Source of the DNA: a virus
Virus record (IMG/VR): IMGVR_UViG_3300048597_000637
Location: 1-42,290 of that record
Direction: 5' to 3' (one strand)
DNA: 42,290 nucleotides
Below the pieces are notes generated by a model. It saw nothing but the letters and a program-made list of their open reading frames with translations, had not been told where the DNA came from and searched no databases. This document shows positions 7,753-42,290 of the stretch, in pieces. A program made the translations under genes and the position numbers. How positions within the stretch are numbered: the first letter of the stretch is position 1; each line of letters begins with the position of its first letter.

Positions 7753-10700
7753 CTACTGATACTCAAACCTCAGTCCGACAATTTGGAGGTTGGAAGTGTC
7801 TGACTGGAAGACGAATGAGGCGTATTCGTCTGCCGCAAGACCGGCAAAGATGCTGCTGAAGTTCACATTCACCTCCGTCATGAGGGATGTGGTCACTGCT
7901 ACGGTCTGGTCCGCATAGGAAGCTATTGGGCCGGTTGGGTCTGAACCCGCTGGGACTGATGAGAACTCGGCGTCCCACTGAATCGTCTCGGTAGTGTCTG
8001 GGACCATAACGACCTCCATCGAGACGAGGCTCGTGTAGTCGGAAGGGACGCGGAACTGGAACACCACACCACCGAGGTTATTCACGTTCCCGTTCGGTGT
8101 GATGCTGGATAGGAAGTTGTTGTACGGATAGGTCACCGTCGTCATGTTTGTGGTAGCGGCGGTGTAGGTGTTTGGGATGAAGATGACCTTGTTGGCCGAG
8201 CCGGTACAGCTCTGCCACTCGATACCTGGCCCAGTGCTCTCGTAGGTCAGACATTCCTCGTCAGCCGCGCCGGTCGTATCGAGGCCAAGCGCGCCTGATG
8301 CGAGAGCCATTCCGAACCCTGTGAAGTCGGAGATGGTGTCACCGGCCATCGTGAGGAAGGTAGCTGCCAGCCCGTTGATGAGGGTGAGGAGACCGTTCAC
8401 GTTTATCGACATGGCGGATGTCGAGGTGGCGAAGGTCGTTGGTGATGAGGTGGCGAAGTAGAGCGAGCCGCTGATGCTGCGGAAGTTCCAAGGGTTGGAT
8501 GTCGCGCTCGCGTCAGAGAGCATGATCTGTGGAGCCGTAGAGCTTGCGATGTTCAAAGAGCTGCGCGGTGTCGTTGTTCCAAGACCGAATCCGGCAAGCG
8601 TCATACGGCCACGCTCCACCGCGCCGTTGTTACCAACGCCGAAGATGATGGCGTCTGCGCCGACACCTGCACCAGAGGTCGAGCGGAGCGTGAGTGTCCC
8701 TCCCGCTACTGTCCCACCGTACGCTATAGGAATGACTGCGGACGTAGTGAAAGTTGGCGTTGCGATAGTTGGCGAGGTCGCTCGTACGATGCCGCCTGCG
8801 GAGCCAGTACATGCCGTACCGAGGATGGTCGGACAAAGTGCAAAGCTCGCGATGCCGTTCGCATTAAACGAGAGCGCAGCAACCGTAGAAGTCGCAAATG
8901 TGCTTGGTGAGCTAGTCGCGAAGAAGAGGCTGTTGGACATAGAACGCACGGTCCAGTGGTTCGATGTCAGCGTTCCGTCTGAGAGTGCAAGCTGAGGCGC
9001 AGTTGAAGTAGCAAGCTGCATGAGCCAGCGCGGGGTCGTCGTTCCGACACCCACATAGAGAGCGGAGTTCGGGTATACACCGAGTGTGGCGTTGGTTGAC
9101 GTAGCCCATTTGTCGCTAGAGCCGCCACCACCTCCGCAAGCGCTTCCAGTAGAGCCTACTGCACCAGAAGTGACATTGAGACAGCCGTCGGAAAGTGCTG
9201 AGAGATTGAGCGTTCCTGTGGCGGTGATATTTGCGGCAAAGAGGTCGCCCGAAAGGTTTGCGCTTCCCTGTACCGAGAGTAAGCGGCCTGGGGTGGAGGT
9301 GCCGATGCCAAAGCGCCCGGCGCTCGTAAACCGAGCGGCCTCCATCATCGTTCCGGGATTGGTCAGGAAGACGAGTGCGTTAGAGGCTGAGTCAGTCTGG
9401 ATGCGCGCTGGGTTTGCGGTCGACCTGTAGAAGTCGATGGTGGCGCTGTTACCTGATGCCGCTTTGATAGTGAGGGCGGTCGCTCCCGTGCTTTCGATTG
9501 CAAGAGTAGACATAGGAGACGATGTTCCGATACCGACGCTCCCATTCGACAAGATGGACATGGCGCGGGTGAGCGTACCCACGGTAGGCGTCACATCGAA
9601 GCCAAGGCCCGCTATCGCGTTTGCGGCATTTGAATAGTCACCTTCTGCAACTGCAGAGATACGGACAGCGCTAGGGTAGTAGCCTGCTATCGCCCCTGTG
9701 GAGGAAGATATGCCAAAGGTCAGGTTCACGCCTTGGGCTGCCGCCGTTACACCGCCGTTGTAAAAGGTAAAGGCGTTCTCATTAGCGTTGTTCGATGCGT
9801 AGAAAACTCCCTTCCCGTCTTCGGTGAAGTCCACCTTCCGGCGCGGGGAATTGACCCCTCCGAAGCTTGCGTTACCTACAACACCGAAGCTGTACCCAGG
9901 CGTTGTCGTGCCTACTCCTATTTTCCCATCATTTGCTATCGTCATCCGCAAGTTCGCATCGGCGATGTCACCAGTGTAGAAGCGCATACCTCCTGCCCGT
10001 GCGGCGATAGAGAGACCACCTGAAAGGTTTGCACCTGAATCGAGCACCGCTCCATCCTGGCGAAGTCCGCCGCTGGTGGTGAAGCCGGTGCCGAGTGCCA
10101 TAAAGCGCACCGACTCGGTTGCGGCGTTGTAGCCGTTCCTTGCGAGAAGCTGGGCTGACGCAGCCGTTCCAGAGCTTGAGTTTGTAACTGCGGCAACAAT
10201 GCCTGCGTTCGCACTATCTCCCACTTCAAACTTGTAGTCTGGGGATGTCGTACCGACACCGACCGACCCGGCAGAAGTGACATACATGTCGTATGTGGTG
10301 TTGTCGGGAGAGTAGGCGGTTACGCCTCCCTTAAACCCGATTCCGACCCGCCCTGTGATACCAAGGTCGTTCGCACCAACGAGGCTCTGACGGGTAATGG
10401 AGCCGATGCCGGCAGTTGTTCCCGCATCAAAGAAAATGCCTTCGCCATTCGTTACGCTTGCGCGGTAGTTACCTTCTGAGTTTGCGATACCAGCGTTGGG
10501 ACTTGATGAGCCGATGCCGAGTTTCGTTCCATCGAAGACGAATGTCGCGGTTGAGGTGAGTGCGCTGTTGCCGCTGTCCATATAGGGGACGCGGTTCGCG
10601 CCGAACGCCGTAGCTCCCGTGCCGCCGTTTGCGATGGGGAGCGTTCCTGTTACGCCGGTCGTGAGCGAGAGACCGGTAGCGTCCGCGAGATTGAAAGCTG

Positions 10701-20709: not shown

Positions 20710-21993
20710 TTAGCGAGGGGTGTCGCTTGCAGCCGTGAAGCTGGAAGACTCAACCGCGAGGGTAACGATCTGCGGAGCCTGGTCCTGGAAGACCTTGATG
20801 CCGTAAACGGTCCACGCGATGAAGTCCTTTCCGATCTTCCGAGACACTCCGTTCTCTTCCATGCTCGGAACCTTCTGGATCACCGTGGAAACGGACTTCG
20901 AGAGGGCGAAGATAAGCTGGAGCTTCTCCTTGCCCACCGTCCATACGTCAGCCGCTGCGGTGAAGGTCTCAGAGACCTCAACCGTGCCCTTACCTGCCGC
21001 GACAAGCGTCAGGGTGTTCGGTGTCGCGTTGTCAGTCGCCGTGATGTTCTTGAGGAGGCGACGGTTAGCCGCTGAAACCTCGAAGTATCCCGTTGCTGAG
21101 TTCTGACCAGTAGCAGAGCCGTTGATCGCGTTCTGGAGCAGGATGCGGCTTGCATCTGCATCAGCACCGATGTCGATCTCTCCTGCGAGTGCCGGCACTG
21201 CACGGAAGGTCCAGGTAACGCCGTTGACCGTGACAGTATCGCCAGCGGTTGGGTTCGTCGCCATTCCGAGCTCACCGGTCCAAGGCAGGCTGTTCGATAC
21301 GAACAGGTTGAAGCCGTGGAAGTAGCCCGAGTAGCCGTTACGCGAAGCCTCATCGCCAAGGTTCGTGTCCTTCCCACCGAGGTATAGCTCGATGTAGGTC
21401 AGAATCTCAGGAGAGATGATCGCAATCGGCATTCCCTCAGGAACTTCGAGCTTTGCACCTCCCTGGAAGCGCTTGTTGTAAACGACGTTCTTCAGGCGGA
21501 GCTTCTGCATCGACAGCGTGAAGATGCGGGCGACGTTGTTCTCAGTAGCGGTGAAGCCGTTTCCAGCCGTACCGCCGCTGAATGAACCATCGTCGAGCGA
21601 CGTTCCAGCGCCCTGGTACGCCTTCAAGAGCACGTCCGCATCAATCTGGTTGATGAGGGCGTTGGCGAGCTTGCGGCCGTACTTCTTCCGAACTGGAAGG
21701 TGCGCCTGGAGCTCGTCGAGCTTCTTGACGTAGATGGACGCCTCCTTCTCGTAAGAGATGGTGAGCGTCTCAGCGGTGTCAGCAATCGCCTGTGGTTCGT
21801 ACGAACCATCGCCACCCATGTCATTGACTTGGACGTCGGATGCGTAGGAACGAGAAACCGTCTGGCCCTTCTCAAGTGACGCTTCGAGACGGGTGTCGGC
21901 AAGGATCTGATAGACAGGCTCCTTGTAGTGCGACATCTGGTATTCCGCAGAGAATACCGTCTTGAAGGTCATCGTATTTGGATTTGCAGCCAT
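20710..21993 (-). CDS. major capsid protein with inserted domain
   Basis: 427 residues. The N-terminal 230 residues look like an HK97-type coat protein: SYASDVQVNDMGGDGSY, a long helix (YVKKLDELQAHLPVRKKYG), then EGMPIAIISPEILTYIEL. About residues 245-345 form a separate beta/alpha insert starting GDTVTVNGVTWTFRA and ending TVEVSETFTAAADVW, like small domains inserted into many phage structural proteins. The coat fold resumes with LQLIFALSKSVSTVIQ and ends IVTLAVESS. It follows the scaffold gene and has the length expected. Assembled capsids would display the insert on the surface. Confidence 0.8.
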   Translation of the reverse strand: MAANPNTMTFKTVFSAEYQMSHYKEPVYQILADTRLEASLEKGQTVSRSYASDVQVNDMGGDGSYEPQAIADTAETLTISYEKEASIYVKKLDELQAHLPVRKKYGRKLANALINQIDADVLLKAYQGAGTSLDDGSFSGGTAGNGFTATENNVARIFTLSMQKLRLKNVVYNKRFQGGAKLEVPEGMPIAIISPEILTYIELYLGGKDTNLGDEASRNGYSGYFHGFNLFVSNSLPWTGELGMATNPTAGDTVTVNGVTWTFRAVPALAGEIDIGADADASRILLQNAINGSATGQNSATGYFEVSAANRRLLKNITATDNATPNTLTLVAAGKGTVEVSETFTAAADVWTVGKEKLQLIFALSKSVSTVIQKVPSMEENGVSRKIGKDFIAWTVYGIKVFQDQAPQIVTLAVESSSFTAASDTPR

Positions 21994-26244: not shown

Positions 26245-27846
26245 CTATTCGCCTAGGCCGGCACGCTCGTAGTCGGGCTGTTGATAGCCTCCACCCGGCT
26301 CCTTCTTCACCTGCGCATAGTCTTTCATCTGGTAGGCGATAGCCGCTGCCATCAGGAGGTCGAAGTGCCTGGTCGTAAGGCGTGCATCCTCCTCCTTGTC
26401 CATGAGGTCATCGCGCGTGTAGCTGCGGAGCTCGGCTATGAGGTCAGGGTCGGATAGCTCCAGGTGCCCGTCCTCAATCGCTTTCTTGAGAGCAAAGAGT
26501 GCCTTGGGCTTGGTGTCGGCATTCGTATTCCAGCCGTAGTGCCTGGTGCGAGGAGCGATGCCTACGCGCGTTTCCTTCTCCTCGGTGAAGAAGATATTGC
26601 CGTAGATTTGCTTGAGCCTGCCGATGGTGGCGTGGCCGTGATTGTTGCTCTCGGGAGCGACGATGCACTCTCCATAGCGGTCGCCTTGGCTTCTGATCTC
26701 GTCCCCAAATGTGTCGGGAGCAATAGCGTTACTCTTGAAGGTCGCCACGACCCGCGATGGCGTCGTTGAAAAGTCAATGAATACGCTCGTAGAGCTGTCG
26801 AGCCCGACACCTCCGGCAACGTCGTGCCCTGATCCGTACCTGTGTGATGCGTCATAATCGTGGAATATCTTAAAGCCAGCAATCTCCCGCTTCGGTTCCT
26901 TCTTGGGCTGCCGGTCAAGCGTGGAGCGATCGAACATGATGTCCGCACCGGCTGATGGCTCGCACAGGTACTCACCTGCGAAGTCATCAGCGTTGCGCTT
27001 GATATTCGCTATCTCCTCAACAGTGTACGCATCCCATGCCGGCACCCCGTCTTTGACGATGGGGACAATGAGCACGACCTTGTCAGGAGCCGGTTGCACC
27101 AGCTTATGGACGTTGCCACGCTCTGAGACGTAGTTGCCTAGGTAGATGGCTCCACCGTCCTTAGAGAGGCCAGTGCGGGCCTCCTCCATGTTGTCCCAGA
27201 TGGCCTGGGTCTCTACCGCAGAGCGCAGCGTTTTCCTGGTCTCGATGTCGTCGAAGATGATGAAGTCAGGGCGGCTGTCTTCCTGGATTTGGCCGCGCTG
27301 ATCGGTGCCTACTGTCCCGGCGCGCACCTTGACGCCGGTCGATGTTGTGAAGGACGCCATTGTCTCCTCACGCTTCTCCGTCGTCTTCTCGAATATCTCT
27401 GGGTAATAGAAACGCACACGCTCGTTGATGAGCATGTTGTAGATGTCGGTCACGAACTGCTTGCTGTTCCCGATGTCCTTGGTGAGCACCTTCACGTACC
27501 GGCGAGCGTGATCCTGGTCGTTGGCGATTACGAAAGCCGTGAAGAGCTTAGTGCGCGTGGTCTTGGCCCCGCCACGAAAGATGATGTCTACAAAATACTT
27601 GAGGGTGCCGCGATAGACGGCGAGGTTGTTGCGGTCGATCTGGGTGTGAAATGGCGCGTCGCCGCTTTTGAAATACTGCGGGAAGAACCATCTGGCCCAT
27701 ATCCAGAATTTGAGCTCGATCTCATCGCTCGGGGTAGAAGCGTCAAACGCAAAGAGTGCCCGGACATCGGGCTTACTTCCCCGCGTCAGTATCTCCTCGA
27801 CGAGTGATTTGTCGGATGGCTGCGGTGGCTTTGTCTTTGTGCTCAT
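26245..27846 (-). CDS. terL: terminase large subunit (packaging ATPase and nuclease)
   Basis: 533 residues. The ATPase half has a variant Walker A (R91-GGAKTT-R98), Walker B DFIIFDDIE (194-202) and the coupling motif YLGNYVS. The nuclease half has the RNase H-like acidic set: D342 (GHDVAGGVGLDSS), E399 (VAPESNNHG) and D496 (RHFDLLMAAAIAY). Terminase cuts concatemer DNA and pumps it through the portal into the head. The small subunit gene overlaps its start by 74 bases. The Walker A lacks the usual GxxxxGK spacing but matches the terminase variant. Confidence 0.92.
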   Translation of the reverse strand: MSTKTKPPQPSDKSLVEEILTRGSKPDVRALFAFDASTPSDEIELKFWIWARWFFPQYFKSGDAPFHTQIDRNNLAVYRGTLKYFVDIIFRGGAKTTRTKLFTAFVIANDQDHARRYVKVLTKDIGNSKQFVTDIYNMLINERVRFYYPEIFEKTTEKREETMASFTTSTGVKVRAGTVGTDQRGQIQEDSRPDFIIFDDIETRKTLRSAVETQAIWDNMEEARTGLSKDGGAIYLGNYVSERGNVHKLVQPAPDKVVLIVPIVKDGVPAWDAYTVEEIANIKRNADDFAGEYLCEPSAGADIMFDRSTLDRQPKKEPKREIAGFKIFHDYDASHRYGSGHDVAGGVGLDSSTSVFIDFSTTPSRVVATFKSNAIAPDTFGDEIRSQGDRYGECIVAPESNNHGHATIGRLKQIYGNIFFTEEKETRVGIAPRTRHYGWNTNADTKPKALFALKKAIEDGHLELSDPDLIAELRSYTRDDLMDKEEDARLTTRHFDLLMAAAIAYQMKDYAQVKKEPGGGYQQPDYERAGLGE

Positions 27847-31142: not shown

Positions 31143-31316
31143 CTACTGGGATCGCGATTTGCGCTTGGTCCAGATGCGGTTCGCTTCCTCCCGTAACGTG
31201 GCGAGGTCGCGGCGGAGATACCCTTTGCGCTTGGCCGTCTCCATATCCGCTAGTGTGCAGTCGAGCTGGACAATCAGGTCCTCCAGCTCCTCTTCGCGCG
31301 GCTTCAATGAACGCAC
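31143..31316 (-). CDS. small helical protein overlapping the DUF932 gene end
   Basis: 57 residues from a GTG (31314-31316) or 54 from a TTG that overlaps the upstream stop. Charged helix (PREEELEDLIVQLDCTLADM, LRREDLATLREEANRIW-like). Translation is probably coupled to the DUF932 gene. No function known. Confidence 0.5.
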   Translation of the reverse strand: MRSLKPREEELEDLIVQLDCTLADMETAKRKGYLRRDLATLREEANRIWTKRKSRSQ

Positions 31317-32014
31317 GCCGCATCGATGACGTTGTGCAGTTGCCGGGTCGCATGCGGGTTCTCGGCAACGCGGCCGGTGAGAGCGAACGTGGTGGCGTTG
31401 AACAGCCGCCATGCCGTCTCGTCGCCCCAGTCATGCGGTGGCGTCTCGTATGCCTCCAGCACGTCATCGACACGCTGAAGGTTGATGACGCCTTTCCGGT
31501 AGAACTCCAGCACTAGATGGTCCGCGTCGCGCTGGGTGAGGGCAGTGTGCCGGTACCGCTCGATGCGCTGCGCCTGTTGCAGGCGCTGACTGCGAAGCGG
31601 TTCGACCACCTCGGCGACGAGGCCGGGAAGGTCCCGCCTGGCGTTCTGTGTGTGCTTGCGCCGGATCACATGGTCACCGGCGAAGGCCAAATTGTCGCAA
31701 ACGAAGACGCGACTGCCGAAGCTGATCCCGATTGGGAACGTCTTGTCGTGGCTGTTACGCAGGCCGACCGTGTCAGTGTAGTCGCCGTACTCGCTCTTGA
31801 GCGACAGGACGCCGAAGAATCGGGCGCTATCCTCGGTCACGCCGTAATCCTCTTGGACGATGTCGTGGCCGTAGAAGCCGAGCGCGTACTTCACCATGTC
31901 CACCACGGCGCTGTGCGCGATGGGGACATGAGTGGGAGTCGAGCCGGGAAGCGGAAGAGCGGCAAGTTGGTCGTAGTTCGCCGGCGAAGCGCCAGCGTGA
32001 AGCAACAACGTCAT
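31304..32014 (-). CDS. DUF932-family phage/plasmid protein
   Basis: 236 residues from the ATG at 32012-32014, with AGGAGA upstream. The DUF932 signature is readable: FFGVLSLKSEYGDYTDTVGL, RNSHDKTFPIGISFGSRVFV, CDNLAFAGDHVIRRKHT. DUF932 proteins are widespread in phages and plasmids; their role is not firmly known. The longer frame to 32053 adds sequence before the ribosome site. Second large gene of the leftward accessory operon. Confidence 0.85.
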   Translation of the reverse strand: MTLLLHAGASPANYDQLAALPLPGSTPTHVPIAHSAVVDMVKYALGFYGHDIVQEDYGVTEDSARFFGVLSLKSEYGDYTDTVGLRNSHDKTFPIGISFGSRVFVCDNLAFAGDHVIRRKHTQNARRDLPGLVAEVVEPLRSQRLQQAQRIERYRHTALTQRDADHLVLEFYRKGVINLQRVDDVLEAYETPPHDWGDETAWRLFNATTFALTGRVAENPHATRQLHNVIDAACVH

Positions 32015-32096
32015 GGTCTGTCTCCTGGGTTTGGAAGGAACTCCGGAGATCATTGTCCCATGCAGGAGCGCTGCGCCTGGCGGGCCTGGGGATAGG

Positions 32097-32813: not shown

Positions 32814-33230
32814 TCACTTCTGTAGGAGGTCAGGATTTTCGTAGACGTTTCCGATGACTTCGCAGGTACGTGGATGTCCGCCTGTCACCATGTCCGCTAG
32901 CGTGATGCCGTCATACCTAAATGCCCCACCATCGAAGATAACGGGGAATATGTCCGACGAACTGAACACTTTATCCGATGCGTACATTTCGTCCTCACAA
33001 TGCAACACATCCCCCTCATAAATCTCCTTCCCGTTCTTGTCGGTGACGCCGGTGAATTGCATGACAGCAAGAACGGTGTATCCCTTCAAGCGAGCTGGTT
33101 TATGAGGCTGTCCCGGATCGTTGAGAGTCCCGCTCTCGTTCAGGTAGGTGTTGCCATTCCAGAAGACGAGCTTTTCATCCGTCACCATGCTTTTCCCGTT
33201 CCACGCCCGAAACTTGATGACGCGGCTCAT
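32814..33230 (-). CDS. YopX-family protein
   Basis: 138 residues from the ATG at 33228-33230. The YopX pattern is clear: MSRVIKFRAWNGKSMV, LAVMQFTGVTDKNGKEIYEG, DVLHCEDEMYASDK, CEVIGNVYENPDLL. YopX is a small beta-rich domain found in many Gram-positive and Gram-negative phages; its role is unknown. The start overlaps the stop of the upstream gene. Confidence 0.85.
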   Translation of the reverse strand: MSRVIKFRAWNGKSMVTDEKLVFWNGNTYLNESGTLNDPGQPHKPARLKGYTVLAVMQFTGVTDKNGKEIYEGDVLHCEDEMYASDKVFSSSDIFPVIFDGGAFRYDGITLADMVTGGHPRTCEVIGNVYENPDLLQK

Positions 33231-33523
33231 ATGCCCTGATGCATTAGGCACTCTTCACCGCCCGCATGATTGTACGAACAGGTGAGGCACCCGCGATCAT
33301 CGTAAGTGAGGTAGCAGTCATCCGTGCTGTGATGAGCCTTCGGCCTCCCGCCCTTTTTACCGTTCTCACGACTCGACTTCGCCTTCTTCTCGGACTTGAT
33401 GGAGCCAAGAGTTATGGCTGCGGAGTTCTTCAATTCCCTCGGGTACAAGGAGCAATTTCTTCGGTCGCAGGCACCATGGTTGTTTTCGAGAACGCATTGA
33501 GGGCATCGATTTTCGTATTTCAT
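33227..33523 (-). CDS. Cys-rich zinc-binding protein
   Basis: 98 residues. A first Cys group (CPQCVLENNHGACDRRNC) and a last group (CYLTYDDRGCLTCSYNHAGG then EECLMH) flank a basic middle (KKAKSSRENGKKGGRPKAHH). The ends could close one or two zinc sites, and the middle may touch DNA. Overlaps the YopX gene by 4 nt. No family known. Confidence 0.65.
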   Translation of the reverse strand: MKYENRCPQCVLENNHGACDRRNCSLYPRELKNSAAITLGSIKSEKKAKSSRENGKKGGRPKAHHSTDDCYLTYDDRGCLTCSYNHAGGEECLMHQGI

Positions 33524-33767: not shown

Positions 33768-33946
33768 CTGTCGAACAACGTAGGCTCTAGAAACCGATCT
33801 GATGCTCGCCTCTGTGTAGATGGCCTCGCATCCTCCCGGAGCTCAAAGAGCGTTGGTTGGGTGAGTTTGGGTTGGTCCTGGGCCTTTCGCATAGCGACAA
33901 TATCGCGCCATGCGTATCTGCGGCCGTCGATCTCGACGTACTTCAT
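33758..33946 (-). CDS. small protein with two sliding-clamp-binding-like motifs
   Basis: 62 residues. MKYVEIDGRRYAWRDIVAMR forms a small fold; the rest is flexible. QPTLF at 30-34 fits the QxxLF beta-clamp motif, and EPTLF at 54-58 is a near copy at the C-terminus. It overlaps the primase-like stop as ATGA. It may tether the phage replication proteins to the host clamp or block it. The motif reading is by pattern only. Confidence 0.6.
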   Translation of the reverse strand: MKYVEIDGRRYAWRDIVAMRKAQDQPKLTQPTLFELREDARPSTQRRASDRFLEPTLFDSPA

Positions 33947-34518
33947 GCCGATTTCGGAAACTTGACGACGTTCGGTGTGAAGTCAGGCGGGATGTAGGTG
34001 AGCTCTTGGACGCCAAAGTATCCCAAAAGCTGGCCGTTCTCATCGCGGAATGGAATCGCGACTGAGCCGCGAACGACACCCTTGGGCGCAAACCCGATAC
34101 CGTGCCTTGTGGCGAACTCCACGGAAAAGCCGATGGCTTCAACCGCTTCGTTTTCAGGCTCCAAGTACGGGAGCGGAGTAAGGGTTCTCGTGCCCTCTCG
34201 TCCGCTACTGCCGCTCTCTGGAACGGTGCGGGTATCGTCCCGCTGGTCTCCAATGAGGAATGATGCAGCCTCTTTGGCCTGCACCTTCATGACATGTGCG
34301 ACGAGCGCGATCTGGTCGCCGCCCTTCTTCACGCCCCAACAATAGAACGCAGACTTGCTTGGGGTGATGACGAGCGCGCGCTCGCCTGCGTTGGGACAGG
34401 CCGGGCAGTGCGCCCGAAACTGTCCGTTGCCTTGCTTGAGCTTGAGCCCAAGCTTGCTCGCGGCTTCCTCGATGGAGACGCGCTGCTTTACCTCGGAAAA
34501 GTCGACGAATCCGGACAT
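33943..34518 (-). CDS. CHC2-type primase-like zinc-finger protein
   Basis: 191 residues from the ATG at 34516-34518, with CAGGAGG upstream. The first 75 residues resemble the primase zinc domain: VKQRVSIEEAASKLGLKLK, FRAHCPACPNAG, SKSAFYCWGVKKGGDQIAL. One Cys of the usual second pair is missing (CWGV). Residues 130-180 (GFSVEFATRHGIGFAPKGV, GSVAIPFRDENGQLLGYFG) match the next primase segment. There is no TOPRIM, so it is a primase fragment or a regulator that reads templates. A longer frame to 34893 passes back over the RNA structure and an opposite gene and is rejected. Confidence 0.75.
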   Translation of the reverse strand: MSGFVDFSEVKQRVSIEEAASKLGLKLKQGNGQFRAHCPACPNAGERALVITPSKSAFYCWGVKKGGDQIALVAHVMKVQAKEAASFLIGDQRDDTRTVPESGSSGREGTRTLTPLPYLEPENEAVEAIGFSVEFATRHGIGFAPKGVVRGSVAIPFRDENGQLLGYFGVQELTYIPPDFTPNVVKFPKSA

Positions 34519-34572
34519 CGCTGCCTCCTGTGAATGAGCTGTCCACAGAGAAGGATACCATCCGGGGTCGGA

Positions 34573-34581
34573 TGATATGCT
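34573..34581 (+). promoter_or_regulatory. extended -10 promoter for the structured RNA
   Basis: TGA-TATGCT, an extended -10 element. Transcription would start near 34588-34590, one or two bases before the left arm of the long RNA stem. The -35 is poor, as usual for extended -10 promoters. Confidence 0.5.
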
Positions 34582-34590
34582 GAGGCAAGA

Positions 34591-34685
34591 TTGGGTGTGG
34601 ACGGCTGGGAGGTAGCCGATACCCTCACAAATCGGGGGATGAAGCTCGTAAGGAGGGAACGCGCCCCCTAGCCGCCCGCACCCAA
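34591..34685 (+). ncRNA. undescribed long-stem structured RNA (leader or small RNA)
   Basis: Bases 34591-34612 pair with 34664-34685: 22 positions, of which 18 are Watson-Crick, 2 are G-U and 2 are mismatches. The loop (34613-34663) can form smaller stems such as CTC-GTAAG-GAG. The ribosome site AAGGAGG of the next gene follows the stem at once. The RNA could be a leader that controls that gene or an independent small RNA. It does not match SRP RNA, 6S, tmRNA or a riboswitch that I know. Confidence 0.65.
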
Positions 34686-34710
34686 AACAATCGCGGGAGA
34701 AGGAGGCCAA

Positions 34711-34890
34711 ATGGCCAACGGAAAGCGCCCCGATTACGAGGTGTTCGTTTCTCAGAAAGGGAAGGACGACAAGAACTTCTACACGAAGGTCGGCGCGGCC
34801 TGGAATGTCTCGTCTGATGGCATTTCCTTCAAGCTTCACGCCCTGCCGCTCGATGGCAACCTCGTCCTCTTTCCGCCGAAGGAAGATTGA
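34711..34890 (+). CDS. small conserved protein after the structured RNA
   Basis: 59 residues by hand translation: MANGKRPDYEVFVSQKGKDD, then KNFYTKVGAAWNVSSDGISF and KLHALPLDGNLVLFPPKED. A compact beta protein; AAGGAGG lies at the right distance before its ATG. I recall similar small proteins in proteobacterial accessory regions. It is alone in the rightward direction and is followed by a strong terminator. Confidence 0.8.
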   Translation: MANGKRPDYEVFVSQKGKDDKNFYTKVGAAWNVSSDGISFKLHALPLDGNLVLFPPKED

Positions 34891-34893
34891 CAC

Positions 34894-35386: not shown

Positions 35387-36304
35387 TTACGGCTTACTAA
35401 TATCGAACGGCTCCCCGGTCGGCCGCTCCCATGGCTCCTCCCAAAGCTCCCAAAGCGGGGCACGGGGCGCGCGCCAGAGCTGCGTGGAGAAGCCTTTCAC
35501 GGCCTTGAATAGATACTTGTCGGCGTGCCGCTTATTCCGGAGCCGATGCATGATGGTCTTGATCCGCTGGCGCTGGGTCTCGCGTTCGCCTTCGGTAGTC
35601 ACGAAAAGCACTTTCAAGTTTCGGATGCCCCACACCTCCTTGAACAGCAGGCGGTCGAAGAATTCTTCGTACCGGTCGAACTTCTCCTCGATGGCGTCCG
35701 GCGTCATCGTCGCCCGATCACCCTCAATCGTGTAGTAGCGATAGGTCTCCGGCTTTAGGCCAATGAGATTGTCGGGCGTCAGGTCAGTCTTGCTCAGTTT
35801 TATGCGGAGCGGAGTCGCAGACTTGGCCGTCTCAGGCGGGCATTTCTCGTGCGCGAGAATCTGCTCCTTCGAGATGAAAGGGACACCGTCCCGCATCGCC
35901 CCGAGCTCGATAGAGGCTGAGATGCAGGCGTTCATAGCCCGATGCGGCATGTAGTCGGTTCGGGGCTTGGCGAGGTGGTAACCCGCGCGAGCGACAAGGT
36001 CGCGCATCGCTTCCGCATTGTCGTACCACGCAGGCTCGGGGTTCGGGCCGTCCGGATTCAGCTGCCATGGCCGAGTAAGGAACGGACCGCCACCGACCTT
36101 CTCGTGTACTAGGTGCTTCATCCGCTCCTTAAAGATGCTGATGGCTGCACCGTTCCCATGTGCCCAGAAGGGATAGGCGATGTCGCGCGGCAGGGGGCCG
36201 TGTCGCTCGATGGCGGCGCCTAGGTACGCCTCGCGCGGCTGGACAAGCACGAGCTTGCCCGTCGAGACAGGTTTATATGGCTTTCGGCGCGTAGAGGCAG
36301 GCAT
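35387..36304 (-). CDS. Replic_Relax-like plasmid relaxation protein
   Basis: 305 residues from the ATG at 36302-36304; a second ATG at 36347-36349 would add 15 residues and neither has a clear ribosome site. The N-terminal half is a winged-helix-like region (AAIERHGPLPRDIAYPFWA, ISIFKERMKHLVHE). The C-terminal half matches replication-relaxation proteins: GLKPETYRYYTIEGDRATM, FDRYEEFFDRLLFKEVWGI, LKVLFVTTEGERETQRQRI. Such proteins sit beside coupling ATPases in conjugative and mobilisable elements and in plasmid replication loci. Its neighbour is such an ATPase. Confidence 0.65.
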   Translation of the reverse strand: MPASTRRKPYKPVSTGKLVLVQPREAYLGAAIERHGPLPRDIAYPFWAHGNGAAISIFKERMKHLVHEKVGGGPFLTRPWQLNPDGPNPEPAWYDNAEAMRDLVARAGYHLAKPRTDYMPHRAMNACISASIELGAMRDGVPFISKEQILAHEKCPPETAKSATPLRIKLSKTDLTPDNLIGLKPETYRYYTIEGDRATMTPDAIEEKFDRYEEFFDRLLFKEVWGIRNLKVLFVTTEGERETQRQRIKTIMHRLRNKRHADKYLFKAVKGFSTQLWRAPRAPLWELWEEPWERPTGEPFDISKP

Positions 36305-36393
36305 GAGGGGTAGATAGATGCGCCCTCGCGACCTGTAACCGGCCAGCATGGCTAGCACGGCTACAGCGAGGCATAGGGGACGCTATAGGGAGT

Positions 36394-38523
36394 CTACCAC
36401 TCGTCGGAAAATTCCTGGCCGTCGTCTGTGGATTGCTTCCGCTGCGCTCGTTTGCGGGCGTTCTTCGTCATGCGCGGTTCGGCTAGGTCGGCGGGTGCGG
36501 TAACAACCTGTTCGGATGGCTCCTCGACCTTATGGGTAACCGGCTCTTCAACCTCTTCGCCGCGAGCGCGCCGCAGGTCGCGAACGATGGCGTCGCTGGA
36601 CGACAGGGAGATACGGAATTGATTGGCCGCTCGGAAATAGTGGTACGCGTTGTCAGAGACTTTCGGTTCTCGGTCTAGGAGACCTGGCGTGATTGGGATG
36701 GAAACCGCCGCTGGTGTGACATTCCGGATGTGGGCCGCGAAGTGCAAATCCGGCTGATCCAGGATGAAATCGGGGGTCGTGCGCATGTCGGGGGCCATCG
36801 CCCTGGCGTCGGAAATCGACACCTTCGACGCGAACTTGATCCCGGTGTTGGCGGCAAGGGATGCGCGTAGCTTGTGGCTCGCCTGGTCAAGATACTGATG
36901 ACCTAGAACGATGCCGCAATTGTGCTTGCGGACCTCCGTGAGGAAGTCGTCGATGGTGTCGTCGAAATACTCGTGACACTCGTCGATGAAGATGAAGGTC
37001 GGCTTGCGCTGCTCCCTCGGTAGCGCCGCGCGTTCCATGATGGCCTGGAGGATGAGTGAAATCATCACGCGGCCGTACTTCCCGGAGTCGTCCTTGAGAA
37101 AATCCTTGGCGGTGTCGATGAGCACCACGGAGCCCTTGTTGAGCAAGTCGAAGAAGTCGACCTTGGTCGAGGGCGCGGTAAACAGTCGCTCGAAGGCCGG
37201 CGTGTCGATCACGGCCTGGAGCCGGTAGCGCACTTCCTCACGCGTCTTCTGGAAGATGGATTTCGGTCGCAGGAAGTCGCGCTCAAAGAACTCACGGGGG
37301 ATGCGGGGCAGGGACCGTATTGCCGGCAGGTAGGGTGTTGGGTCGTCCATAAGCTGCATCATGTCGAGGATGGTCGCCGGCCGGCCCATCGTCTTGGGCA
37401 GGGACAGCATGAGCCTAGCGACCATGCGGAAGAAGACGCCCTGCTTTGCGGACAGGTCCGCGCCTAGAAGCCCGTCGAAGAGGTAGTCGAAGGTTTGGAG
37501 GACGCCCGCGAGTACCTGCTCCTGGGTTACCTCGTCGTAGGCATCGAGCCGCTTTACATCGAAGATGTTGATAGCTGGTGGGTGCTTCACGTCCTTAGGA
37601 GTGATGAGAACCACCTTGTCGTAGAACTTCTCGCCCATCACCTGAGAGAAGATCTCAAGCTTCGTGAGGCGATTGATCAGGTCACCCTGGCTGTCGATGA
37701 CTACGATTGACGGCGGATCGTCAGTCTTCAGGTCGTTGAAAATGAGGGTTTCGAGGAGCGAGGTCTTGCCCGCGCCGGTACCTCCGACCGCATGCCAGTG
37801 CGTGTAGCGTTCCCTATAGGAGAGCTTTAGCGGAACTGGGGTTTGGTAGAGGTCGAGGAACGGTGTGCCACGAAGATAGCGCTCCGTGAGCTCGTTAAGC
37901 GGGAGCTTCGCCTCCTCGGGAAAGATGAGCGGCTTCGTCCCATCCGGCGTAGTTCCGGAAACGGCATAGATATTGTCGGTGTAGGCCTTGATAAGCCCGG
38001 TGAAGAGCCCGCGGTCATCGTAGTCCCGGTCGTAGAAGTGGGTAATGATTTGCGATACCCACGTCTTCGGGTTCGCGAGCGCGTAGATGAGCGGAATAGT
38101 GAAGGGCGATGGCGCCTGCATCTCGGGAAGCGCTTCGCCTATTCCGGTGAGTGCTGGCACCAGCGCTTCAAGTAGCTTGTCGTCGAACTCCTTCTGCCGG
38201 TCGAAGTAGGTCTTCTTCCTGGCAAGGAGGTTGCTGAGCCTGGTCTGCTCGATGAGCGTCATGCTGCTCCTGAGCGGCGGCATGCTGAACATCATGTCTT
38301 CCGCGTCCAGAATGGTGCGGAGGCATTTCTCGATAGGATCGTGGAGAAGCTGCGGCACCTCGTAGCAATACGACATGACTTTGGCGACGAGCTGTTCCTT
38401 ATCTCGCCCGTGAAGCCGCTGGCACTCCGCTACCTCGGCATAGCGTTGCCGGAGGTCGCGCATCTCCCGGTCCACCTCGGTCCCGAAGAAGCGACGGAAG
38501 AACGGGGTGAAGACCGAAGGCAC
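36394..38523 (-). CDS. VirD4/TraG-like DNA-pumping motor ATPase, soluble form
   Basis: 709 residues. Walker A GGTGAGKTS is at 247-255; VVIDSQGD follows at 274-281; Walker B IFIDE is at 511-515; GHQYLDQ with Q543 is the sensor region. This is the conjugation coupling protein (TraM/VirD4/TraG, HerA-FtsK superfamily) layout. Unlike true coupling proteins it has no transmembrane pair at the N-terminus. The C-terminal 60 residues are disordered (EEVEEPVTHKVEEPSEQV). It is encoded with the Replic_Relax-like gene. The role in a phage is not known: mobilisation, partition or DNA transfer. Confidence 0.85.
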   Translation of the reverse strand: MPSVFTPFFRRFFGTEVDREMRDLRQRYAEVAECQRLHGRDKEQLVAKVMSYCYEVPQLLHDPIEKCLRTILDAEDMMFSMPPLRSSMTLIEQTRLSNLLARKKTYFDRQKEFDDKLLEALVPALTGIGEALPEMQAPSPFTIPLIYALANPKTWVSQIITHFYDRDYDDRGLFTGLIKAYTDNIYAVSGTTPDGTKPLIFPEEAKLPLNELTERYLRGTPFLDLYQTPVPLKLSYRERYTHWHAVGGTGAGKTSLLETLIFNDLKTDDPPSIVVIDSQGDLINRLTKLEIFSQVMGEKFYDKVVLITPKDVKHPPAINIFDVKRLDAYDEVTQEQVLAGVLQTFDYLFDGLLGADLSAKQGVFFRMVARLMLSLPKTMGRPATILDMMQLMDDPTPYLPAIRSLPRIPREFFERDFLRPKSIFQKTREEVRYRLQAVIDTPAFERLFTAPSTKVDFFDLLNKGSVVLIDTAKDFLKDDSGKYGRVMISLILQAIMERAALPREQRKPTFIFIDECHEYFDDTIDDFLTEVRKHNCGIVLGHQYLDQASHKLRASLAANTGIKFASKVSISDARAMAPDMRTTPDFILDQPDLHFAAHIRNVTPAAVSIPITPGLLDREPKVSDNAYHYFRAANQFRISLSSSDAIVRDLRRARGEEVEEPVTHKVEEPSEQVVTAPADLAEPRMTKNARKRAQRKQSTDDGQEFSDEW

Positions 38524-38987
38524 TAGATCGCCTTAGTTACGATGCCATCGGTCATAGCAGGCTTGTCGCCGGTGTAGTCGAACACGATCTCTCGTCCATC
38601 GAAAGCTTTGGCATTCTCCAGATACCGCTTGAGGTTTTGGCAAGCCGTATGAATCGCTTCCTCAGCGCCCATGAGCTCTCCCATATCCTTGCACTCGATG
38701 TGCTGACCCTGGATGAGGCTGTTGACCGTAACGGTTAGCGCCATCTTTGACATCGCAAAGCTCGCCCACGCTTTCGCCGCACCTCCGAACGAACCGTCTG
38801 CATTGACCGAGTTCGCAGCATAGTTCTTCGCGGCCTCGCTGACGTAGACGACCTCGCCGCCGAGTTTGTATTTTCCGATTGCGTCCGCTTCTTCCTGGGT
38901 GAATTGCACGCGGGCGTCGAGACAGAAGACGTTGGTCTTCGTCAGCATCCCGCTGGTCTTCATCGTCCGTTTGAGCTTGAGCTGCAT
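38523..38987 (-). CDS. unknown protein coupled to the motor ATPase
   Basis: 154 residues. Starts at ATG 38985-38987 with GGGGGAAG before it and overlaps the ATPase start by one base. Beta-rich N-terminus (TKTNVFCLDARVQFTQEEAD), an Ala/Ser-rich middle (AAKNYAANSVNADGSFGG), then helical CKDMGELMGAEEAIHTACQN. No family recognised; a partner of the ATPase by context. Confidence 0.7.
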   Translation of the reverse strand: MQLKLKRTMKTSGMLTKTNVFCLDARVQFTQEEADAIGKYKLGGEVVYVSEAAKNYAANSVNADGSFGGAAKAWASFAMSKMALTVTVNSLIQGQHIECKDMGELMGAEEAIHTACQNLKRYLENAKAFDGREIVFDYTGDKPAMTDGIVTKAI

Positions 38988-39044
38988 GGCTTCCCCCGTT
39001 TGGTTCAGGGAAGGTCAACGGTGGCTTCGAGTCAATGCGGCAAC

Positions 39045-39812
39045 TTACGCGCGCTTCTCGGTGCACTCCTCGATAAACGCATTCCACTGGTTCGTGTGGG
39101 GCAGGTGGGGACAGAGGTACTCCGCAAGCGCAACGGCGTCCTGGTAGGTGCATCGGCTAGGGATGAGTTCGCTGCTGGTGAGAAGCCGGTTGCGCATCTT
39201 CTCGGGTATCTCGGCCAAACTGTTCACGCACGCTACCAGTCGCCCTTGTTCGATAAGGTTCTCGTGGAATGACGCGGCGTAGAAGCCGAAGTCCGTGATG
39301 ACCACTGTTCCAGGGTACCGGCTGGCGAGCAAGTTGCCGATGAACAAGCTATCGAAATTTCCGAGCGTCGCCCGGTCGAGACGGGCAAGGATGGTCCCCT
39401 TCATGGAAAAGTTCAGGGACGGTGGACGGGTAAGGACAGGCTTGAGGACCGGCGAGAGTAGGAGCCGCTGGACCTTGTTGAAGGCGTCCTTTGTCTCTTT
39501 GGTGTCCGATATGAGACCGTCCAGTTTCTTCGGGCTGTCCATAAGCGCCGCGAGCAACTGCATGCTCGTGTTTTGCCGGGTGAGCGTATTCTCGCCGCCG
39601 GGATAGACGCACTCGATGACGGACACGATGTCGCAGGCCGTCCGATAGGAAATGTCCCTAAGGGGATTGAGGGAGTGCTTGAGCGGATCAAAGCGCCTGG
39701 CTCTCTTGGAGAGCTGGTCGATGACAGGACCGTTATCGACGACCAGGCATGGTTCTTCGGGAAAGTCGTTGAGCAACGCTTTCCTTTTGGCGCCGATGTA
39801 GAGCCTGTTCAT
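39045..39812 (-). CDS. unknown protein resembling a degenerate motor ATPase
   Basis: 255 residues. Segments such as LVVDNGPVIDQLSKRARRFD, PLKHSLNPLRDISYRTACDI and GENTLTRQNTSMQLLAALMD resemble regions between Walker A and B of VirD4-like ATPases (the DP-x-FNPL stretch). There is no P-loop. A later strand pair (GTVVITDFGFYAASFHENLI, QGRLVACVNSLAEIP) looks like the Walker B and following strand of the same fold. It may be a non-catalytic partner of the 709-residue ATPase. Confidence 0.5.
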   Translation of the reverse strand: MNRLYIGAKRKALLNDFPEEPCLVVDNGPVIDQLSKRARRFDPLKHSLNPLRDISYRTACDIVSVIECVYPGGENTLTRQNTSMQLLAALMDSPKKLDGLISDTKETKDAFNKVQRLLLSPVLKPVLTRPPSLNFSMKGTILARLDRATLGNFDSLFIGNLLASRYPGTVVITDFGFYAASFHENLIEQGRLVACVNSLAEIPEKMRNRLLTSSELIPSRCTYQDAVALAEYLCPHLPHTNQWNAFIEECTEKRA

Positions 39813-39943
39813 GGGCCGGGGCGGGTAGTGCCTCGCGTCGCAGCAAGGATGCTCGCGCCGGCCGCGAAACGAAGAACTGTTCCGCTACCATTGTAATAGG
39901 GAGAGGCCACGGCTTTATTCTACCCGGCGTTGTGGGGGTGAGA

Positions 39944-40381
39944 ATGTTCTGGATGCTTATTGCTCAAGCTTCAAGCGGAGCGGACCCGTTCGTCGAATAT
40001 TGGGCCAAGTGGAATCAGTTTCTTTTTGAGAACCGAGACGCTGCGATCGCCATCAGCGTCACGGTGACGGTACTGGTGACGTTAGCCTGGGTCGGGAGCA
40101 TCAACGCCATCAGAAGCGGGCAGGCCCGGCTGGTGCTGTATGTACTGTGCGCTATCTTCAGCTTGATAACCCTCGCGCACATCATTCTCTTTTTCCGTCC
40201 ATCATTCAGTTGGCCGGGACTTCTCGCGTTCGCGCTGAGCGCGACATTAGCTTTCGTTTTTCGAGAGACGGTTGCCCGATGGCTCGGGCCGATAGTCATT
40301 CTGGGATTAGTAGGCGTCGCGTTCAGGCTTCTGACCTGGGGCATGAATGCAGAAGCTATGTGGCGGTTCATCACGCGGTAG
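39944..40381 (+). CDS. membrane protein with about four helices
   Basis: 145 residues from the ATG at 39944 (GGGGGTGAG just upstream; a GTG at 39932 would add four residues). Hydrophobic segments: AIAISVTVTVLVTLAWVGSI, VLYVLCAIFSLITLAHIILF, LLAFALSATLAFVF and LGPIVILGLVGVAFRLLTW. Small loops rich in Arg. No family known. It faces the large palindrome and is transcribed divergently from the ATPase operon. A membrane partner for the motor is one possibility. Confidence 0.75.
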   Translation: MFWMLIAQASSGADPFVEYWAKWNQFLFENRDAAIAISVTVTVLVTLAWVGSINAIRSGQARLVLYVLCAIFSLITLAHIILFFRPSFSWPGLLAFALSATLAFVFRETVARWLGPIVILGLVGVAFRLLTWGMNAEAMWRFITR

Positions 40382-40387
40382 GAATGG

Positions 40388-40540
40388 TCCGCACCACAAG
40401 TCGTCGTTGGTCGCGAAGCGCCACGACCCAATGTCCGTAAAGGACAAGCCGCAGTCCGATAGGCAAGGCGGTCCGGCCGTCCGATAGGGCGGTTAGGGAC
40501 ATTGGGTCGTGGCGTGAAGCCCGACGACTTGTGGTGCGGA
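40388..40540. repeat. large interrupted palindrome (possible oriT, attP or replication site)
   Basis: Outer arms TCCGCACCACAAGTCGTCG (40388-40406) and its exact complement (40522-40540), 19 of 19 bases. Inner arms CGCCACGACCCAATGTCC (40419-40436) and its exact complement (40497-40514), 18 of 18. The 60-bp centre holds direct repeats GTCCGATAGG at 40454-40463 and 40479-40488. No coding frame with credible composition crosses it. It sits between the membrane gene and the integrase cluster. Confidence 0.85.
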
Positions 40541-40865: not shown

Positions 40866-40891
40866 GGGAGCCGGTGTGGAAGCCGGCTCCC
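40866..40891 (-). terminator. terminator after the AlpA-like gene
   Basis: GGGAGCCGG, 8-nt loop, CCGGCTCCC. Leftward it is followed by TTTCGTTT. Perfect 9-bp GC-rich stem. Confidence 0.85.
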
Positions 40892-40900
40892 TGCTCTCCA

Positions 40901-41095
40901 TCACGGAGAGAGTTGTGCGTCACGCTCGCTTAGTCGGGCTTGCATCCAGTCCAGAACTTCTTGCTCCACATACGCGACCCTTGCCTGCCCTAGTCGTATC
41001 CGCCTTGGGAACTTTCCGGCTTCTTCGAGGCGCGCTGTGTGCGCGAAGGAGTATAGGACCAGCTCTTTCACCTGCTTCTTCGAGAGAAACTTCAT
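40901..41095 (-). CDS. AlpA-family regulator / excisionase-like protein
   Basis: 64 residues from the ATG at 41093-41095. FLSKKQVKELVLYSFAHTAR, LEEAGKFPRRIRLGQARVAY and VEQEVLDWMQARL are the AlpA winged-helix pattern, with the recognition helix and the RIRLG wing. AlpA proteins activate integrase or help excision. An ATG at 41108-41110 would add MRSIA. A perfect palindrome lies just upstream. Located next to the integrase gene as expected. Confidence 0.85.
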   Translation of the reverse strand: MKFLSKKQVKELVLYSFAHTARLEEAGKFPRRIRLGQARVAYVEQEVLDWMQARLSERDAQLSP

Positions 41096-41101
41096 CGCAA
41101 T

Positions 41102-41120
41102 GCTCCGCATGATGCGGAGC
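41102..41120. promoter_or_regulatory. 19-bp perfect palindrome upstream of the AlpA-like gene
   Basis: GCTCCGCAT-G-ATGCGGAGC, in the 37-bp gap between the integrase stop and the AlpA start. Could be an AlpA operator or an mRNA hairpin between the two genes. Confidence 0.6.
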
Positions 41121-41132
41121 GTCGCGACGCCC

Positions 41133-42290
41133 CTAGGTTTCCCCATGGGCAACGGGGACAGTACCAGTTCCGGGAAGATTGGAAAGGTACAGTTCCCACT
41201 TCGCGGTCGCCTCCCGCATCTCCGGGACGAAGTCGTACTTCTGGTAGACCCCGACGATGCCGCCGAACGAACCTGAGACGTGGTTGAGGAGTTTCTCCAC
41301 GACATGGATAGGCGTGCCGAGACCAGCGAGCCCGGTCGCGAAGGTCCTCCTGAGGTCGTGTAGCGAGTAGCCGGAAACACCGGTCCGGACATCGAACGCA
41401 GCCTTGGACTTACCCCAATTGTTGAAGACGGTAGCCTTGGACTTCCGGGAGCGGTCCTTCGCGGCCGGGAAGAAGTAGGGGCTGTCCTTCACCACAGGTT
41501 GGCGCTTGAGGATCGCAAGCGCGGTTGGGCAGACTGGGAAAGTATGCTCCCGGCCGTTCTTTGTGAGGGAGGCGGGCAGGGTGATGAGGTCGCCCTTCAC
41601 CCAGCTCCGCTCCAGCCCGGCAATCTCCCCACGGCGCTGACCGGTGAGAATCAAGAGCGCAACGATGGCGTCGAAGGCGCGGTCGCTGTCTTTGGTACTG
41701 TTCCAGACCTGGGACAGTTCCTCGGGGGACAGTACCCGTTCCCGCGGCTCGCCCGGTACCGGTACTAGTACCCGCTCGATGGGGTTCTTCTCGACGTACC
41801 CGTTCTGAAGGCAGTATCGGAAGAACGCCCTGGCCACCGTGAACGCGTGCCGCTTCTCGGAAGGGGGAAGGCCCTTGAGCTGGGCGATGATGTCCCGGTT
41901 CGTTATCGTCGCGATGGACTTCCGACCGAACGGATAGTGCTTGGTAAGGAGCCGGGTGTACTCGGCCTTCGTCCTTGGCCGCGCGTCTGACTGGTCGAGG
42001 TACTCCTTCTTCACATCGTCGAAGGCGGTGTGAGAGGGGCGAACGCTACCCAAGGTCTTCTCGGCTAGGACGCGCTTGGCCTCCTTGCGAGCGTCGATGA
42101 GCTTGAGGTCGGGATACCGTCCAAGCGTCTGGCGTCGGCCGGAGCCGATGAGCACCACGAAGGTCTTCACGCCCTTCGGAGATACGCGGACGCCAAAGCC
42201 CTTCGTTCCGGCGTCCCAATGATATGCGGCGACCGTGGCAGGTGCCGCGAATCGGCGGATGTCTTGATCCGTGAGTTGAGAGCTTTGCAC
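41133..42290 (-). CDS. int: tyrosine integrase with DUF4102-type N-terminus
   Basis: 385 residues, reading from a GTG at the last three bases of the window. N-terminal DUF4102-type arm-binding domain (GFGVRVSPKGVKTFVVLIG, GRYPDLKLIDARKEAKRVL), core-binding helix region and catalytic domain. Catalytic set: R219/R220 (TGQRRGEIAGLE), K244 (SLTKNGREHTF), H311 and R314 (HDLRRTFAT), H337 (LLNHVSG) and Y349 (GVYQKYDF). It inserts and excises the element at a host att site. The true start may lie just beyond the window edge, although the N-terminus looks complete. Confidence 0.93.
   Translation of the reverse strand: MQSSQLTDQDIRRFAAPATVAAYHWDAGTKGFGVRVSPKGVKTFVVLIGSGRRQTLGRYPDLKLIDARKEAKRVLAEKTLGSVRPSHTAFDDVKKEYLDQSDARPRTKAEYTRLLTKHYPFGRKSIATITNRDIIAQLKGLPPSEKRHAFTVARAFFRYCLQNGYVEKNPIERVLVPVPGEPRERVLSPEELSQVWNSTKDSDRAFDAIVALLILTGQRRGEIAGLERSWVKGDLITLPASLTKNGREHTFPVCPTALAILKRQPVVKDSPYFFPAAKDRSRKSKATVFNNWGKSKAAFDVRTGVSGYSLHDLRRTFATGLAGLGTPIHVVEKLLNHVSGSFGGIVGVYQKYDFVPEMREATAKWELYLSNLPGTGTVPVAHGET

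Follow-up and report, generated by a model that had tools for sequence, protein, structure and literature searches.

A candidate mobilisation module with a nested palindrome, common to temperate tailed phages and integrative mobilisable-type elements

Phages and conjugative or mobilisable elements are usually treated as separate modes of DNA transfer, and intact phages with a relaxase and an origin of transfer (oriT) are considered rare. What, then, is a conjugation-type DNA pump doing in the genome of a tailed phage, in the block that follows its integrase gene? The question is raised by IMG/VR virus record IMGVR_UViG_3300048597_000637, which at its full length of 42,290 bp (GC 58%) forms the window analysed here. 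DnaT-like, RecT and YqaJ genes lie at its left end and a tyrosine integrase gene at its right end; the terminase and capsid genes pointed out in a first-pass annotation hold as assigned, and tail and tail-fibre genes are also present. Between the integrase and the DNA-metabolism genes, the minus strand encodes an AlpA-type protein, p255, p154, the large ATPase (ATPase-L), a Replic_Relax/MOBC-like protein (RR) and a CHC2 protein, while the membrane protein gene and the 153-bp interrupted palindrome noted in that annotation lie between AlpA and p255 (Table 1). Every feature listed in that annotation was found, either at the coordinates given or very close to them. The locus had been proposed to be a conjugation-type motor operon, of which the coupling-type pump with its partners stands; the cassette is, however, not one phage's own kind, being shared with integrative mobilisable-type elements. 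With moderate confidence, we read it as a mobilisation module of the MOBC/type IV coupling protein kind with its own cis site, common to these elements and to temperate phages.

ATPase-L, described at the outset as a VirD4/TraG-like ATPase without a membrane anchor, fits that description: it matches TrwB_AAD_bind above the cut-off, has an intact Walker A motif (GGTGAGKT at 247) and lacks a hydrophobic N-terminal segment. The Walker motifs are conserved in its family. Among 29 diverse homologues, TrwB_AAD_bind is matched by 28, HerA DUF87 by 23 and T4SS-DNA_transf by 12, compared with one for FtsK and none for any terminase family; because the homologues match TrwB_AAD_bind, ATPase-L is regarded here as a coupling-protein-type pump rather than an FtsK or terminase relative. 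NCBIfam models add weak VirB4, TraD, CedB and CedD matches. An N-terminal transmembrane domain is present in the Rhodobacterales branch and a few other relatives but absent from the window protein and most of the family, which is why we file ATPase-L as a coupling-type pump and not as VirD4 proper. The relatives came from profile searches – a single-protein search of viral contigs returned no match, and a PDB sequence search with ATPase-L and RR profiles returned no informative one. An apparent fusion of ATPase-L and RR at one locus (L073) proved to be a frameshift artefact.

By profile and predicted fold, RR is a member of the MOBC/Replic_Relax family, as the first-pass annotation had suggested for a gene that lies just beyond the span it gave to the operon. 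The family profile PF13814 – which stands for the MOBC relaxase superfamily and is found with a VirD4 coupling protein in streptococcal integrative mobilisable elements (IMEs; PMC5357655) – matches 26 of 28 RR homologues at E 0.01 or better, the best at 1e-19. In the AlphaFold 2 (AF2) model of RR (pLDDT 88.6), a winged helix leads into a beta-alpha domain that has the topology of a PD-(D/E)XK-type nuclease; D179 stands at the start of a strand of this domain and E195-x-D197 on the next. P178-D179 and E195-x-D197 (numbered on the 306-aa form) are kept, by comparison within the family, in the window protein and most homologues. TraX, the MOBC prototype, combines an N-terminal winged helix with a restriction-endonuclease-like active site (PMC12857230). 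The best solved structures found with Foldseek are XisH (2inb/2okf), followed lower down by the nickase N.BspD6I, PaqCI and TnsA, all of them weak matches; nicking is a predicted activity of RR.

Two further proteins accompany the pump. The first is p154, the unknown protein whose overlap with the ATPase-L start had already been noticed: homologues lie immediately upstream of ATPase-L in about 50 loci, and profile searches found divergent versions in 20 more. Its AF2 model has a pLDDT of 84, and a fold search against the PDB gave no match. In sphingomonads, where the ATPase-L anchor is absent, p154 has a hydrophobic hairpin that is visible in the alignment. A Lysobacterales element (L084) encodes two small membrane proteins (9043-9728, + strand) in the place of p154 immediately upstream of ATPase-L, which suggests that p154 is interchangeable with a membrane anchor.

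The second is ATPase-S, a 400-aa ATPase with an intact P-loop, whose gene lies close by in most loci for which the flanking sequence is long enough. Its place in the window is taken by p255, rightly described as ATPase-like but without a P-loop; an hhalign comparison of five phage p255 sequences with twelve ATPase-S sequences (probability 95.7, E 9e-9, 240 columns) identifies it as a decayed ATPase-S whose P-loop has been lost. ATPase-S is intact in phage contig G054 and full-length without a P-loop in G050, whereas the window, G001, G049, G052 and G053 have the short form, which is itself a conserved family (about 40% identity).

The palindrome, put forward in the first-pass annotation as a candidate oriT, is better supported than could be known from one genome, being kept in unrelated phages and mobile elements. 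In the window, its outer arms (40388-40406/40522-40540) are 19 nt long and 100% complementary, and its inner arms (40419-40440/40493-40514) 22 nt long and 95% complementary; its score of 19 was not approached when the interval was dinucleotide-shuffled 60 times, the highest value then being 13. One long interrupted palindrome – the nested pair, in the case of the window – stands out in all six phages that have the integrase–cassette interval, with scores of 17-21 that were unreached by any of 60 shuffles and with the next-best candidate near chance level. Similar palindromes lie upstream of ATPase-S in chromosomal elements: a score of 15 was reached in 7 of 48 regions of 800 bp upstream of ATPase-S, compared with 1 of 256 random windows from the same loci, and most of the remaining loci had no such palindrome within the stretch searched.

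Phage and rhizobial-type sites have in common CCACGACC-like outer arms and a right flank of the form GGTCGTGGC-GTGA-GCCCGACG, and several of them contain AAGGACAYGCC in the spacer; Rhodobacterales, and perhaps sphingomonads too, use other arm sequences. The inner arm positions vary freely, each of them showing from two to four types of base pair (counts lowered by the mis-registration of one site, L059, in the pair table), yet the arms remain 83-100% complementary, which points to selection for pairing itself. In a blind test, the pattern GCCACGACC-N80-110-GGTCGTGGC was scanned across 2.9 million viral contigs. It was found in 48, and the arms exceed 13 nt in two of these – precisely the two that carry the cassette, one of which (L124) is a cassette phage that the protein searches had missed.

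Other identities for the palindrome were considered and rejected. It matches no known RNA in Rfam. As a terminator or leader of the membrane protein gene it would be oddly placed, following that gene in the window, preceding it in G001 and occurring in G053 and G054 with no such gene. As an attP site it would not be expected to stay with ATPase-S in elements that have a serine recombinase or no nearby integrase homologue, nor, as a packaging site, to occur in elements without a nearby terminase.

How far does the cassette extend beyond the window? Profile searches of IMG/VR returned at least seven other cassette phage contigs (G001, G048, G049, G050, G052, G053 and G054), a count that leaves out G002, which resembles a Rhodobacterales-type element and is not clearly a phage. 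By their structural genes, the window, G049 and G050 belong together (G054 shares some of these genes), as do G001 with G048 and G052 with G053; the terminases best match phrog_38, phrog_675, phrog_2 or phrog_979, three types beyond that of the window. All keep one arrangement – integrase, palindrome, p255 or ATPase-S, ATPase-L, RR and CHC2 – except that the G048 and G049 contigs stop before the integrase side. We found no description of a tailed-phage cassette of this kind in the literature searched, which mostly excluded subscription journals.

A scan of bacterial genomes yielded 80 loci, mostly in Alphaproteobacteria, with the recurring order ATPase-S, p154, ATPase-L, RR (in about 50, RR was detected downstream of ATPase-L) and with serine or tyrosine recombinases as common neighbours. 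In most of the 45 genomes searched whole, exactly one ATPase of each size was found. None of the 45 has VirB4 on the cassette contig, 27 have none anywhere, and in the genomes searched ATPase-L has no terminase nearer than about 80 kb (positions compared by hand). An integrative mobilisable element is understood as having an integrase and a relaxase-type gene but no mating pore; with a recombinase near many of them and VirB4 off the contig, the cassette loci look, from their gene content, like elements of this type. One of them, L059, carries by eye an ArdC-like protein and metal-resistance-type cargo. The ATPase is not retained alone: its partners and the palindrome are kept with it in unrelated phages and in mobile elements. 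The ATPase-L tree rejects a single phage clade (p-AU 8e-5) and calls for at least four changes, long branches limiting the detail, so that a single capture of the cassette by phages is rejected with the same caveat; repeated exchange of the module between mobilisable elements and temperate phages is the best explanation.

The cassette is also found on plasmids. The circular record of the Methylomagnum plasmid pRS11DPr5 (L003) has ATPase-L, a p154 relative and a replication-relaxation gene around its start, and its cargo includes ubiquitin-like (multiubiquitin/ThiF) genes and TIR genes; on a Sulfitobacter mediterraneus plasmid (L002), an anchored ATPase-L adjoins the replication-relaxation gene between toxin-antitoxin pairs. 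Because L002, like L003 under MOB-suite, is typed as non-mobilizable, current typing misses the module. A 161-aa protein encoded near ATPase-L in L076 (7289-7774) and 21 other loci is, by eye, perhaps RuvC-like, with no significant Pfam match.

A mobilisation module resembling CloDF13 MobB/MobC is the simplest reading of the cassette: its relaxase-type protein, its coupling-type pump and its conserved site with self-complementary arms are shared between the phages and integrated elements without phage genes or recognised pore genes. According to this model, the integrase and AlpA would excise the element; RR, with its winged helix and nuclease fold, would recognise the nested palindrome and nick it. 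The DNA would then be docked by p154 and ATPase-L, the latter joined by a second subunit (ATPase-S or what remains of it, p255), and pumped by them to a helper conjugative element's secretion pore, in the manner of CloDF13 MobB/MobC. The CHC2 protein may aid priming of the second strand.

Several points weigh against this reading. The RR of the window falls below the cut-off of its own Pfam family (17.8 vs 25.3 bits), the nuclease fold matches are weak (best E 0.013), the arms of the palindromes are 40-115 nt apart, wider than in typical oriT hairpins, the mobilisable-element label of the chromosomal loci is based on gene content, and no helper for transfer of the cassette is known. The P-loop losses (p255 in five phages and ATPase-S of G050), the RR of G052 and G053, which lacks the PD motif, and the absent anchor make it doubtful that all the phage copies are fully functional. 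Transfer by CloDF13 MobB depends on the very membrane anchor that ATPase-L lacks, and deletion of its membrane domain abolishes its function (PMC7431656); an anchorless phage pump therefore needs a membrane partner or works differently, and the phage copies may be fully, partly or no longer transfer-competent.

The same genes could instead serve a purely intracellular role, in which RR nicks the palindrome for rolling-circle or other replication, resolution or partition of the excised element, the ATPases move or unwind DNA and CHC2 primes, with no conjugation involved. We consider this unlikely, if still worth weighing: the primase neighbour, the soluble pumps, the absence of a VirB4 gene nearby and a self-pairing cis site that would fit an origin all agree with it, and a requirement for Replic_Relax proteins in the replication and relaxation of plasmids has also been described (PMC3756968). 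Against this, ATPase-L is closest to coupling proteins and not to replicative helicases, and the phage already encodes DnaT-like and RecT/YqaJ proteins of its own at the opposite end of the window. To our knowledge, no coupling-type pump acts as a replication factor. Another idea from the first-pass annotation, a phage-plasmid with a segregation motor, is not supported, given the tyrosine integrase, the AlpA-type excisionase and the lack of any partition family among the window proteins scanned.

More improbable still is that the phage cassette is a decaying remnant of an ancestral element, partly kept for regulation, and that transfer takes place solely in the non-phage elements. Loss of the P-loop from p255, the changed RR motif in G052 and G053, the long phage branches and the failure to recognise p154 in phages besides the window would all be explained; yet the ATPase-L of the window retains its Walker motifs, ATPase-L, RR and a near-perfect palindrome are retained across phages with different structural genes, and the identity kept within the p255 family is not expected from decay. 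Least probable is a defence or superinfection-exclusion system of HerA-like ATPases and a nuclease carried near the integrase: although in PADLOC both ATPases match mad8 (5e-17 and 5e-13) and, weakly, HerA, and the RR fold weakly matches Hachiman, the cassette proteins scanned include no MADS partners, RR and p255 show no recognised defence partner and p154 a marginal CARF match only, the core position with integrase, AlpA and primase recurs in phages and elements, and the cis site, conserved and linked to the cassette, is what one would expect in a mobility module and not in a defence system.

Among known systems, the mobilisation region of CloDF13 comes close to the proposed module, with a coupling-type ATPase (MobB), a MOBC-type protein (MobC) and no mating pore of its own (PMC7431656, PMC12857230), a likeness at the level of published description. 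The cassette differs in its anchorless ATPase, its second small ATPase or remnant thereof, p154, the wide spacing of its palindrome and its residence in tailed phages. Class 8 of the streptococcal IMEs (VirD4, Rel_PF13814/MobC and a serine integrase) is a similarly compact module of integrase, relaxase and coupling protein; it belongs to Firmicutes, however, and in the accessible part of its description is reported without a second ATPase or p154 and without phage structural genes (PMC5357655). TraX of pAD1 pairs a winged helix with a restriction-endonuclease-like relaxase, for which no covalent intermediate was seen (PMC12857230), but its bind site consists of five direct repeats 70-120 bp from nic, whereas that of the cassette would be an inverted repeat with nested arms. 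Phage and plasmid transfer functions are also mixed in phage-plasmids and the mobilisable derivatives of these, although P1-like phage-plasmids that retain phage function rarely have a relaxase or oriT (PMC10879196); unlike in those derivatives, the putative transfer functions of the cassette reside in phages with structural genes and an integrase.

A broader and more tentative proposal, which we hold possible but would not favour as it stands, is that temperate tailed phages of about 40 kb – a loose class spanning several unrelated types of capsid and terminase – can also be mobilised by conjugation through a relaxase, a paired-ATPase pump and a previously undescribed nested-palindrome oriT, with the module exchanged with integrative mobilisable elements, and may leave the cell either in a virion or through the mating pore of a helper. 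An integrase-adjoining module that recurs, with its cis site, in phages of several unrelated structural types would make dual-mode transfer directly testable, and the recognisable site could serve as a signature by which to detect such elements in DNA. The search has also brought to light what seems to be an undescribed family of mobilisable-type elements that have two pumps and a partner of unknown fold and occur in many Alphaproteobacteria.

Table 1. Features of the window, with coordinates, strand and basis of assignment.
Feature	Coordinates	Strand	Basis
Major capsid	20710-21993		
Terminase large subunit	26245-27846		
DUF932 protein	31304..32053	-	PF06067 1e-7
CHC2 zinc-finger primase-like protein	33943..34893	-	PF01807 3e-9
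59-aa protein	34711..34890	+	By eye, resembles small proteins at the equivalent place in elements L059 and L083
RR, Replic_Relax/MOBC-like, 323 aa from GTG (ATG start near 36307 possible)	35387..36358	-	Pfam PF13814 family, AF2 model
ATPase-L, VirD4/TrwB-type DNA pump, 709 aa, without N-terminal membrane anchor	36394..38523	-	TrwB_AAD_bind 9e-7, above cut-off
p154, conserved partner; stop overlaps ATPase-L start	38523..38987	-	Homologues in the same position at other loci
p255, ATPase-S relative, P-loop lost, reduced to 255 aa	39045..39812	-	hhalign to ATPase-S family; position matches ATPase-S
Small membrane protein, up to four hydrophobic segments	39932..40381	+	Hydropathy
Nested interrupted palindrome, oriT-like cis site	40388..40540	.	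Arm complementarity; similar sites in other phages and chromosomal elements
AlpA-type excisionase/regulator; true start within 163-aa ORF	40901..41110	-	Pfam PF05930 4e-8, residues 100-150 of the long ORF
Tyrosine integrase, at record end	41133..42290	-	Pfam 1e-14, PHROG integrase 3e-54

Some neighbours travel with the cassette. Integrase relatives lie near it in about 20 loci. A CHC2 protein accompanies RR in phages and in part of the elements, having been found in 9 first-set loci, the window counted, and in the further phages. The DUF932 protein is common to the window, G001, G048, G049 and the chromosomal loci L056, L062 and L067 (phmmer 3e-107 to 4e-94), while database searches with the 59-aa protein gave no match. 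The membrane protein is a non-constant component: a 159-aa protein with two membrane segments takes its place in G001, and none is evident in G053 or G054.

Within the window, positions 40871-41129 (- strand) match Rfam RF02649, the Ruegeria Trans44 sRNA, with 55.6 bits and E 8e-13, below the gathering score; because the match overlaps the AlpA gene, RF02649 is perhaps part of the AlpA region of an integrated element rather than an independent sRNA. A YopX family protein (32814-33251, - strand; PF09643, 2e-20) is a phage protein of unknown function, and a TIR-domain protein (4397-5143, + strand; PF13676, 7e-13), possibly a defence or anti-defence gene, adjoins the RecT and YqaJ genes.

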